A DNA stretch of 64,000 bases from Vaginella massiliensis. Its GTDB lineage: Bacteria; Bacteroidota; Bacteroidia; Flavobacteriales; Weeksellaceae. A model generated the notes under the pieces. The model had not been told where the DNA came from, ran no database searches, and saw only the letters and a list, made by a program, of their open reading frames with translations. Made by a program: the position numbers and the translations under genes. Of the stretch, positions 29,466 to 33,131 are shown in pieces. Position 1 is the stretch's first letter. Each line of letters begins with the position of its first letter. The DNA lies in assembly GCF_900089075.1 (NCBI RefSeq), contig NZ_LT593746.1, positions 889,207 through 953,206 of the forward strand, written 5' to 3'.

Positions 29466-29786
29466 ATGCAAGCTATGGAAGTTATCGCAATACAAAAATC
29501 CGCTTTTGACGGAATGAAAAATGAGCTAAAAGCACTTTTGGAACTGACCGAAAATGCCACGCAGAAATACACGCCCATTTTTAAAGAAGAGCAATGGCTC
29601 GATAACCAGGAAGTGTGCCTGATGATGAACATTACCAAACGGACTTTACAGACCTATAAAGACAAAGGTTTGCTACCATACTCCAAACTGAACCGCAAGA
29701 ATTATTACAAACGCTCGGATGTGAAGGCTTTGCTACAAGCCGGACAACCGTACAATACAAATGACAATGGATTTACTGACGAATGA
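29466..29786 (+). CDS. helix-turn-helix protein (excisionase-like)
   Basis: A 106-residue protein: N-terminal helical linker (1-45), then a MerR/excisionase-like HTH with WLDNQEVCLMMNITKRTLQTYKD and wing KNYYKRSDVKALL. Proteins of this type in Bacteroidota ICEs act as small regulators or directionality factors (for example Xis2c/Xis2d of CTnDOT). Its stop overlaps the next gene by 26 bp. A second possible start is at 29475. Confidence 0.75.
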   Translation: MQAMEVIAIQKSAFDGMKNELKALLELTENATQKYTPIFKEEQWLDNQEVCLMMNITKRTLQTYKDKGLLPYSKLNRKNYYKRSDVKALLQAGQPYNTNDNGFTDE

Positions 29787-30066
29787 AGCCGAAGAAATCA
29801 TCGCTCATCAGGAGATGATATTACAGTTAAGAAACCGTATTGAAAGTATATTGAAAAACTACCGTCCTGTAATGAACGGAGAAATCTACTTGTCGGGCGA
29901 AGATGTGTGCGAATTGTTGCATATCAGCAAACGGACTTTACAGCAATACCGTGATGATAATATTCTGCCGTACATACAGATAGGAGGCAAGATTATCTAT
30001 AAGGAAAGCGACATTCTGACCATCTTGGAAAAGAATTATATATCCAACAACAAACATTGTCTGTAA
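29761..30066 (+). CDS. helix-turn-helix protein, second of pair
   Basis: A 101-residue protein with the same layout as the one before it: YLSGEDVCELLHISKRTLQQ as HTH and GGKIIYKESDILTIL as wing. The sequences are clearly related (shared CxLLxIxKRTLQxY), so the pair arose by duplication. It overlaps the upstream gene by 26 bp; a second ATG at 29767 is possible. Probably a regulator or recombination directionality factor. Confidence 0.72.
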   Translation: MTMDLLTNEAEEIIAHQEMILQLRNRIESILKNYRPVMNGEIYLSGEDVCELLHISKRTLQQYRDDNILPYIQIGGKIIYKESDILTILEKNYISNNKHCL

Positions 30067-30106: not shown

Positions 30107-30114
30107 TATCTTTG
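30107..30114 (+). promoter_or_regulatory. -7 promoter element upstream of structured leader
   Basis: TATCTTTG fits the TAnnTTTG consensus exactly. Transcription from about 30121 would give a 5' leader of about 220 nt before the ATG at 30342. Confidence 0.5.
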
Positions 30115-30150
30115 TATTTGAAAATATAGAAAATACTTAAAGTGTTTTTG

Positions 30151-30320
30151 CTTTAGGTCTTGGTACTAAAAACTGGTAATTTTTGTAACCCCGAGGCAAT
30201 AAGTAAGAACGCTCACGTTATGGCGTGGGCGCTCGCTTATTCGGGGTTTGGGCGTACCAGTGCCTTAGTATCGGTAAGTGTGGTTGCCTACGCCTCTTTT
30301 TTTAGCAGGGTTCCACTTAC
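30151..30320 (+). ncRNA. structured 5' leader or small RNA
   Basis: Nested pairings cover 170 nt. Outer stem: TGGTAC (30161-30166) with GTACCA (30254-30259), extended across an internal loop by AGG and CCT. Central hairpin: AACCCCGA (30187-30194) with TCGGGGTT (30241-30248), ATAAG (30199-30203) with CTTAT (30236-30240), CGCTCACG (30210-30217) with CGTGGGCG (30224-30231, one G-U). A third stem joins GTAAGTG (30274-30280) and CACTTAC (30314-30320) around a run of seven or more T. It does not code for a protein and lies directly before the receiver-domain gene. Confidence 0.6.
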
Positions 30321-30341
30321 TAAACATTAAAAATTGGTATT

Positions 30342-30791
30342 ATGAACACTGTAAACAACCCTGAACAAATCAACATTGCCTTTATCAATGATAAAAGCCC
30401 GATTATAGATGTAATCTGCAACGACCTTGTTGCTTCAGGAGTTAATGTTTTATTCCGTTCGGAGAATATCGAGGACGGATTATCGCAACTATCAGTGTTA
30501 CAGCAACTCCCTAAAGCCTGTATTATTGACCTTGATTTTCACGACAGAAATGTGCTGGCACAGCTTCAGGAATTAAGGACAAAATATCCAAATATCAAAC
30601 TCATTGCCCATAGCGATATTGATACCGAAAAAGCTGTAATACCGCTTTTAGAAATTGGCTTTGATAGTTATTTGCTTATCGGTAGCGATGCTGACGATTT
30701 TAAAAAAGCCATCGAGGGAGTGTGCAATGGCAAAAGATATTTTAGTGTTGGAGTATCGAAAATTGCCCACGAATATTCCAGCAATAAATAA
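30342..30791 (+). CDS. stand-alone degenerate receiver-domain protein
   Basis: A 149-residue protein with the fold signature of a response-regulator receiver: acidic pocket residue Asp17, phospho-acceptor strand CIIDLDF with Asp63, a Ser91 after IAH, and an ending FDSYLLIGS where the usual invariant Lys (YLLK) is replaced by Ile. No DNA-binding domain follows. The missing Lys suggests that it is not switched by normal phosphotransfer. It lies behind a 220-nt structured leader. Its role is unknown; control of ICE genes is an inference. Confidence 0.65.
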   Translation: MNTVNNPEQINIAFINDKSPIIDVICNDLVASGVNVLFRSENIEDGLSQLSVLQQLPKACIIDLDFHDRNVLAQLQELRTKYPNIKLIAHSDIDTEKAVIPLLEIGFDSYLLIGSDADDFKKAIEGVCNGKRYFSVGVSKIAHEYSSNK

Positions 30792-31602: not shown

Positions 31603-32409
31603 TTAACCAACCTTTATCGGTTGGGTGCGGTAGTCTTTCAGATTGTGGAAAAATCCCCTGTATTCGGTCATTCCATAACGAAACAAATCCCAAAGCAACC
31701 CACAACCCATTTGAGCCAATGAGCCATTGATAAATAAATCCTGCTTTTGCAAGGCTTCGGCAAGTGAGCAACTTGGTGTGTCGTCCTGTTCTTCGGACTG
31801 CTTCAGCAAATCTCCAAATTCTTCGGTAACAAATGGCAGGCTTGCCACCGTTTGGTACTTTTCTGAGTTGGGTTGTTTAATTTCCCCGATTGTAGATAAC
31901 AGCACTTGCCCTGTATGTTGGCTGTTCCCAAAATCCAACCAATATTTTGGGGTATCTCTGTAATTTTTACGGTTGCTAAATACGCTCAATATTTCAGCAA
32001 CACCAAACCTTGCCTGTACATTATCTACGCAAGTAATGGTAATGGTAGCGTGTGCTACTTCGGGTATTTGTCCGAAATTATCCTTTTCAAATTTTCGGTT
32101 CTCGGCTTTCCAATTTGTACCGATACAACGGTTTACACGATTGATTAAAGCAACGGATTTATACAATCCTGTTTCGCTTTCAAAAAAACGCTGTCTGCCT
32201 AAATTGGCAGTCGTGATAATATCATCATCCCACAACCTTACGGATAATCCTGCGTGTCCCAAAGCCGTCAGACTTTCGTTAATCTCTAACAAGGCGGTCA
32301 ATACTTTTGAGCCTGTGCCACCTGCTCCGATAAGGTTTACCGTAATCGGGTTGGTTGGGTTTAACAGATAGTTATCTGTGAAATGTATTTTTGTTTTCTC
32401 GGTATTCAT
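31603..32409 (-). CDS. PRTRC system ThiF family protein
   Basis: A 268-residue protein from the ATG at 32409, which overlaps the protein B stop (ATGA). It has a ThiF/E1-like nucleotide-binding start GAGGTGSKVLTALLE (28-42), an acidic strand LWDDDIITTANLGRQRF that binds ATP in this family, and a later CVDN motif. It belongs to the PRTRC (ParB-related, ThiF-related) cassette of plasmids and ICEs. ThiF relatives adenylate small protein or peptide C-termini; the partner here is unknown. Confidence 0.85.
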   Translation of the reverse strand: MNTEKTKIHFTDNYLLNPTNPITVNLIGAGGTGSKVLTALLEINESLTALGHAGLSVRLWDDDIITTANLGRQRFFESETGLYKSVALINRVNRCIGTNWKAENRKFEKDNFGQIPEVAHATITITCVDNVQARFGVAEILSVFSNRKNYRDTPKYWLDFGNSQHTGQVLLSTIGEIKQPNSEKYQTVASLPFVTEEFGDLLKQSEEQDDTPSCSLAEALQKQDLFINGSLAQMGCGLLWDLFRYGMTEYRGFFHNLKDYRTQPIKVG

Positions 32410-33131
32410 CACAATAGATTTTTAAGGGTTTTGCTGTTCTTTTTTAATGCTTCTTTCGGAAAGGGTTTGTTTGTATTAACAAGGTCTATCCAAAGGCTTA
32501 CAATGTTCTTTTTGGTCAGATTACTGCACAATGAATGGCTGAAATAGGAATTGAAAAAATAATGTTCCCAAGCCTGTATAAATTCTTCAACCGAAGCCGA
32601 ATTTTTAATATCAATGCTTACCGTTCCCATACATACATTGCCCTTTTCGTAGATGTTGAAAAACGGGGCGTAATGCAAAGGTGTTTTCTCGGTGGGTCTT
32701 CTGTCGTTTGCCAAAGCAAATACAGTCAGACTGCTTTTACTCGCTAACCAAAGCATTGCAGGTACTTGTGCCATTCCGTTGGGAATGCCCAGACAGTCCA
32801 CAAAATACAGTTGCCTTTGCTGTGCTTTGGTGTACCATAGCACAGTGCCTTTATCAAGGCTCGGATTGATATGCAGAACATTGTTAGGCAAAATTCCTTT
32901 TGGCTTTAAAAAAGCGGTGTTCTTTTCTTCATCGGTCTGTAAACACTTTGCCAAAACATTGGCTTCTTTTACGGTCAATGGGTGGGCGTTGATAGGGTTG
33001 CCGTCCTTGTCCATATCGAAATGCTCTACATAGGTTTCTTTGTTCGTGCTGTTGGTTTCGTAAAAAACCAATGCGGATTTAGGAAAATAAAGCGTTCCGA
33101 AATTTGCTGTTATGTCGGTTACGTTGTTCAT
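32409..33131 (-). CDS. PRTRC system protein B
   Basis: A 240-residue protein matching PRTRC protein B: N-terminal beta-rich part with NFGTLYFPKSALVFYE, central MAQVPAMLWLASKSSLTVFAL, and a C-terminal helical part. It overlaps protein F and the ThiF gene by 4 and 3 bp, so the three are translated together. No enzyme motif is seen; function unknown. Confidence 0.82.
   Translation of the reverse strand: MNNVTDITANFGTLYFPKSALVFYETNSTNKETYVEHFDMDKDGNPINAHPLTVKEANVLAKCLQTDEEKNTAFLKPKGILPNNVLHINPSLDKGTVLWYTKAQQRQLYFVDCLGIPNGMAQVPAMLWLASKSSLTVFALANDRRPTEKTPLHYAPFFNIYEKGNVCMGTVSIDIKNSASVEEFIQAWEHYFFNSYFSHSLCSNLTKKNIVSLWIDLVNTNKPFPKEALKKNSKTLKNLL

Follow-up and report, generated by a model that had tools for sequence, protein, structure and literature searches.

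A structured leader RNA with two conserved, mutually exclusive folds upstream of a receiver-like gene in Vaginella massiliensis, and its relatives across Bacteroidota

A structured RNA that precedes a receiver-like gene in the 64,000-nt stretch of Vaginella massiliensis DNA analysed here (the window) is, judging from comparison with its relatives, probably an orphan ON riboswitch. Covariation and complementarity among the aligned sequences showed two conserved folds, a pseudoknotted sensor (state A) and an intrinsic terminator (state B), and showed that the two exclude each other. By sequence, the same RNA precedes many unrelated genes across Bacteroidota and has the appearance of a new genetic switch class; attenuators and riboswitches are an established kind of element, and this class is absent from Rfam 15. 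The features of the leader are listed below.

30107-30114, + strand: -7 promoter box TATCTTTG, of the Bacteroidota type TAnnTTTG; predicted start near 30120
30120-30303, + strand: structured leader RNA, ending with the U run; placed by folding, covariation and identity
30135-30142/30151-30158, + strand: hairpin P0, of the ICE type, overlapping the pseudoknot strand at its 3′ end
30157-30162, + strand: pseudoknot 5′ strand GUCUUG; covarying partner at 30192-30197
30163-30169, + strand: P1 5′ arm; partner at 30265-30271
30172-30178, + strand: P2 5′ arm ACUGGUA; partner at 30255-30261
30187-30194, + strand: P3 5′ arm; covarying partner at 30241-30248
30192-30197, + strand: pseudoknot 3′ strand CGAGGC; first bases shared with P3
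30199-30240, + strand: P4 arm, antiterminator (P4a, 30199-30203/30236-30240; P4b, 30210-30217/30224-30231)
30222-30231, + strand: terminator 5′ arm GGCGUGGGCG; overlaps the P4b 3′ arm and corresponds to the stretch that the dCas12f guide matches in relatives
30250-30265, + strand: hairpin P5alt, GGGCG-UACCAG-UGCCU; lies within the terminator and recruits the P2 3′ strand
30285-30294, + strand: terminator 3′ arm UGCCUACGCC; complementary to the P4 arm
30297-30303, + strand: terminator U run (U7)

Two exclusive folds of the leader

The promoter motif and the distances to the downstream gene predicted a 5′ leader position behind a promoter. The consensus -7 element described in the earlier note was indeed present as TATCTTTG, and TAnnTTTG was found upstream of the leader in 94 of 105 relatives, compared with a mean of 10.1 in shuffles. 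The folding energy of the leader was -71.4 kcal/mol (z -3.4 versus shuffles), and among 528 pairs the leader was more conserved than the gene behind it in 394 (98.4% and 85.6% identity, respectively, in the comparison with locus L036). A search elsewhere in the window for a target of the 3′ segment of the leader returned one match with three mismatches, which is chance level.

The sensor fold was scored, with the pseudoknot included, on alignment A3 (30 distinct leaders, plain MAFFT). Alignments fitted to a covariance model are biased towards their own structure; A3 and A8 were not so fitted. In A3, 98.2% of cells were paired, compared with 30-42% in slid controls, and 78 cells were changed on both sides, compared with 26 in shuffles. 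Compensating base changes, whose absence from relatives was to count against the proposal of a structured leader, were present in 33 of the 34 pairs of a phylum-wide alignment of 70 members, in which the covariation score was 0.594 (0.177 when shuffled and at most 0.066 when slid). P1 had both-side changes at four pairs in A3 and six in A6 and was exchanged as GUACUAA/UUAGUAU, ACAUUGA/UCAAUGU and GCAUUAG/UUAAUGC; P3 occurred as CCCCG and CAACG, each with a changed partner; and P2, invariant in the ICE set, covaried in the distant relatives of the phylum-wide alignment. The pseudoknot, which had been overlooked in the earlier note, was exchanged as GUCUUG/CGAGGC, GUCUUG/CAAGAC, GUCCC/GGGAC and GUUCC/GGAAC, with phylum-wide variants up to UAUUCUGU/ACAGAAUA and CACUUCCU/GGGGAGUG, and none of 2000 permutations of its partners was as good as the true pairing. 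The central hairpin of 8+5+8 bp proposed earlier corresponded to P3, P4a and P4b, and the proposed outer stem to P1 and P2. These comparative data show that the leader with its covarying fold of P1-P4 and pseudoknot is real, and that its sensor is conserved with compensatory changes, as in riboswitches.

The second fold rests on two complementary strands: GGCGUGGGC, at 30222-30230 and lying mostly within the P4 3′ arm, and GCCUACGCC, at 30286-30294, after which come UC and the seven U residues. Folded alone, 30218-30306 formed, at -36 kcal/mol (z -3.1), a single long hairpin with the U run at its end. The terminator partner lay directly 5′ of the U run, in an unbroken helix, in about 100 of 109 members, in which the distance from the P4 arm to the partner and U run was mostly 63-78 nt; the search used found no clear terminator in a few members (for example L119, L207, L212, L226 and L227). 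The arms co-varied (GGACGCG/UGCGUCC, GCGCGGG/CCCGCGC, GGCGUGAG/UUCACGCC and AGCGUGGGCUUGC/GUGAGUUCACGCU), and own partners outperformed permuted ones in all 2000 trials, an effect due mainly to divergent members (20.5 for own and 18.7 for crossed arms) because in most members the arms hardly vary; of the 53 distinct arms, 15 were no better than crossed ones. RNAalifold, given 57 members and no structure, recovered the terminator base, the middle helix and P5alt with compensatory changes. The conserved partner of the sequence preceding the T run is the P4 3′ arm. The 3′ stem that the earlier note drew around the T run (GUAAGUG..CACUUAC) appeared in single-sequence folds, lost its 3′ half in relatives and was dropped.

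P5alt excludes P2 because its loop uses the P2 3′ strand, and with the terminator taking the P4 3′ arm, states A and B are mutually exclusive; the expression platform excludes the sensor, as expected of a riboswitch. The energies calculated for the window were -65.4 kcal/mol for state A and -61.5 kcal/mol for enforced state B, a gap of about 4 kcal/mol in which the pseudoknot is not counted.

Distribution and neighbouring genes

Covariance model R1 found full-length matches in 95 of the 396 genomes sampled from the order, with up to eight per genome, and model R2 gave matches in 44 of the 390 sampled from the phylum, distant families included. Neither leader relatives nor protein relatives were found on viral contigs and plasmids. 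Against Rfam 15, the window gave no gathering match (only one chance-level match, to BsrG, at E up to 10) and 12 relatives gave only chance mir-5856 matches; a literature search, within whose scope the dCas12f-sigma papers did not fall, found nothing on this RNA. The genes adjoining the leader in the window are as follows.

29466-29786, + strand: HTH_17 protein 1, the neighbour on the upstream side, kept together with the leader in 41 of 49 loci
29761-30066, + strand: HTH_17 protein 2, excisionase-like
30342-30791, + strand: receiver-like protein of 149 aa, phosphorelay-degenerate and without output domain; its ATG is about 45 nt past the U run

The window carries a CTnDOT-type conjugative element, with TraG, TraJ, TraK, TraM and TraN above cut-off, and a tyrosine integrase with Phage_integrase, Arm-DNA-bind_5 and SAM-like domains above cut-off. 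The product of the downstream gene matched Response_reg weakly. As the earlier note had observed, it is a receiver domain without an output domain in which the invariant Lys is missing, Ile standing in its place; in the ICE family the first acidic residue is Asn and the phospho-Asp position is kept, so that the acidic pair, phospho-Asp and Lys of a functional receiver are not all present. The more distantly related receivers L091, L094 and L095, which are also encoded behind this leader, keep Lys and the first acidic residue. Loss of both residues throughout the ICE family, and their retention in these relatives, suggests that the ICE-family protein is independent of phosphorylation. Its relatives comprised 49 loci from Flavobacteriia, Sphingobacteriia, Chitinophagia and one Dysgonomonas, and the leader was at the same place in 44 of them; in three of the five leaderless loci (L050, L058 and L059) the HTH neighbours were missing too. 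Downstream of the receiver gene, PRTRC ThiF-family and PRTRC protein B genes lie on the minus strand (31603-33131), and ThiF was near the leader in 22 of the 49 relatives.

The leader is not an ICE-specific device, because the same RNA precedes many genes unrelated to conjugation, and rather than defining this phylum-wide class of switch, the ICE receiver is one of its passengers. The median distance from the U run to the next same-strand gene was 232 nt; in 89 of 100 loci such a gene followed within 500 nt, and in 57 within 250 nt. These genes encode TonB-dependent receptors, FecR, receiver proteins, membrane or secreted proteins, RibD_C proteins in CTnDOT-like elements, a 174-aa family, and an ECF sigma factor with a 364-aa protein. 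In the CTnDOT-like loci L215, L217 and L228, the RNA is followed by the RibD_C (reductase-like) gene, with HTH and primase-like genes 5′ and topoisomerase III nearby. The 174-190 aa family (L098, L105 and L115-L130) had no match in Pfam, NCBIfam or PADLOC. In the contexts of the 174-aa family the gene starts 200-400 nt past the U run, and because of this gap some copies could be free-standing RNAs.

In Chryseobacterium-like genomes (the genus being read from gene content), a small XRE gene in divergent orientation and anti-phage genes that vary were often found upstream. Genomes of L115-L130 and similar loci carried several RNA copies, each adjoining different defence genes (D12 and type IIG methylases, UG5 reverse transcriptase, HamA, TIR and AbiEii), and the family of the XRE gene, about 130 nt upstream, differed between loci. 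Chryseobacterium-type copies (L115-L134) had an extra closing helix (GCUUAGA/UCUAAGC or GCUUUGA/UCAAAGC), which the ICE type lacks, and about 100 nt of further conserved sequence, and for these reasons the RNA may be about 300 nt long there. A palindrome upstream, first read as an operator, may as well be the first hairpin of the RNA.

The dCas12f operons of relatives

The 364-aa protein encoded behind the ECF sigma factor matched PDB 9n9c, "Nuclease-deactivated Cas12f" (E 5e-162). All 22 dCas12f genomes of the order sample contained the RNA, which was the leader of the sigma-dCas12f operon in 15 of 20 dCas12f loci. Conversely, dCas12f was found in 22 of the 95 genomes carrying the RNA; most are without it. 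Neither dCas12f nor any Cas12f-TNB protein was found in the genome of the window, and the link is therefore limited to relatives.

Directly 3′ of dCas12f, a second conserved RNA, GAGGGUGCUUGUACACCC...UAUACAAC, occurred in one to four tandem copies with distinct 3′ sequences and is a putative guide RNA, with a scaffold of about 66-73 nt (GAGGGTGCTTGTACACCC...TATACAAC; L165-L184, for example L182, L184 and L170). In 13 of the 14 parsed loci, the parsing having overlooked some leaders, the guide, (G)GCGTGGGYTC.., had its best match in the leader's P4 3′ arm, with agreement at 10-15 of 16 bases; this match fell on the terminator 5′ arm, 66-70 nt 5′ of the U run. Some putative guides of L165-L184 did not match the leader. 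By these matches, the leader is the site matched by the putative dCas12f guides and not a guide RNA. Complexes of dCas12f and sigma factor start transcription some 46 bp downstream of their target. A start at this distance from the guide site would skip the terminator 5′ arm, and since the guide sits on that arm, RNA-guided transcription by dCas12f-sigma would presumably bypass the attenuator.

Proposed mechanism and competing explanations

Transcription is predicted to start near 30120, and the first 160 nt would fold into the pseudoknotted sensor (pseudoknot and P1-P4). With a stable sensor, P4 would retain the GGCGUGGGC strand and RNA polymerase would read into the receiver gene; with an unstable one, this strand would pair with GCCUACGCC, P5alt would form inside, and transcription would stop at about 30303. 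Termination near 30303 would be the default, with read-through when a signal holds P4. A signal that stabilises the sensor would make the leader an ON switch, a direction expected because P4 belongs to the conserved sensor and also serves as antiterminator. The likeliest signal would be a small molecule because a conserved core with a pseudoknot stands before diverse downstream genes, as in second-messenger riboswitches. Promoter use, termination, switch direction and ligand are predictions. The explanation as a whole, a cis-acting transcription attenuator with two exclusive folds that acts as an ON switch on a small-molecule signal, is one in which we place considerable confidence. The riboswitch-like attenuator suggested in the earlier note received strong comparative support from the two exclusive conserved folds, one of them an intrinsic terminator; the overall reading of that note, which included control of an ICE switch, was supported in part. 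More tentatively, and with some doubt, the leader may belong to a Bacteroidota-wide riboswitch class with a common signal that switches nutrient receptors, defence-adjacent genes and conjugative-element genes, and that is bypassed in some genomes by a dCas12f/sigma complex, guided to the terminator 5′ arm and starting transcription past it.

An attenuator that responds to a protein or to an RNA in trans, rather than to a small molecule, is a rather unlikely alternative. The downstream product itself (the receiver or the 174-aa protein) might be sensed, or an antisense RNA might act on the terminator 3′ arm; different downstream families do recur behind the leader, and the dCas12f guide GGCGUGGGCUC is complementary to the terminator 3′ arm and could pair with it as RNA. 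No protein family is common to all loci, however, and the scarcity of dCas12f among RNA-carrying genomes, including its absence from that of the window, speaks against the guide as the general signal. It is improbable that the product is a small RNA acting freely in trans, made by termination after about 185 nt, to which the downstream gene is incidental. Such an RNA would account for the promoter, the terminator, the several copies per genome and the gap of the 174-aa contexts, but it needs no competing antiterminator, whereas exclusive conserved folds mark a switch, and a same-strand gene is close by in more than half of the loci and about 45 nt away in the ICE set.

The dCas12f operons gave rise to two further readings. 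An omega-RNA-like guide RNA of a Cas12f or TnpB relative was suggested by the adjacency of a pseudoknotted RNA to these operons and its presence in every dCas12f genome. This is very improbable and was rejected: dCas12f is immediately followed by a different scaffold that carries variable guides, no variable guide follows the last helix of the leader, and most genomes with the RNA lack such a protein. Least credible is a DNA element only, either a protospacer or a protein-binding site, with an incidental RNA fold. The guide matches to the P4 arm fit such a site, but compensatory changes that include G-U pairs, and the pseudoknot, occur also in genomes without dCas12f, and for the element as a whole this reading was ruled out by covariation.

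If true, the attenuator explanation would add a frequent, multi-copy, uncatalogued switch class, present in about one quarter of the sampled genomes of the window's order, to a phylum in which few riboswitches are known. It would offer a testable common control for TonB receptors, genes of conjugative elements and the 174-aa family found next to defence loci, and dCas12f-sigma systems would gain a defined native site.

With transcription-terminating riboswitches the leader shares a conserved pseudoknotted 5′ domain, an exclusive intrinsic terminator and diverse downstream genes; it differs in matching no class in Rfam 15, and it was searched for in one phylum. The Flavo-1 RNA motif, reportedly described by Weinberg in 2010 (cited in PMC9723704), is presumably covered by Rfam, in which the leader found no match. 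Flavo-1 is, like the leader, a computationally found RNA that is widespread in Flavobacteriaceae. Its matches lie on either strand of transcripts, and many lie outside transcripts (PMC9723704); in this it differs from the leader, which is promoter-linked. In dCas12f-sigmaE RNA-guided transcription (PDB 9n9c and related), the leader stands 5′ of sigma-dCas12f operons with its P4 arm matched by the guide; it is the matched site, not the guide, and occurs mostly in genomes without that system. The window shares its Tra proteins and tyrosine integrase with CTnDOT-type elements. To our knowledge, no attenuator of this fold has been described for these elements; RteR of CTnDOT is a separate small RNA. 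Related leaders are carried by other CTnDOT-type elements with topoisomerase III (L215, L217 and L228).
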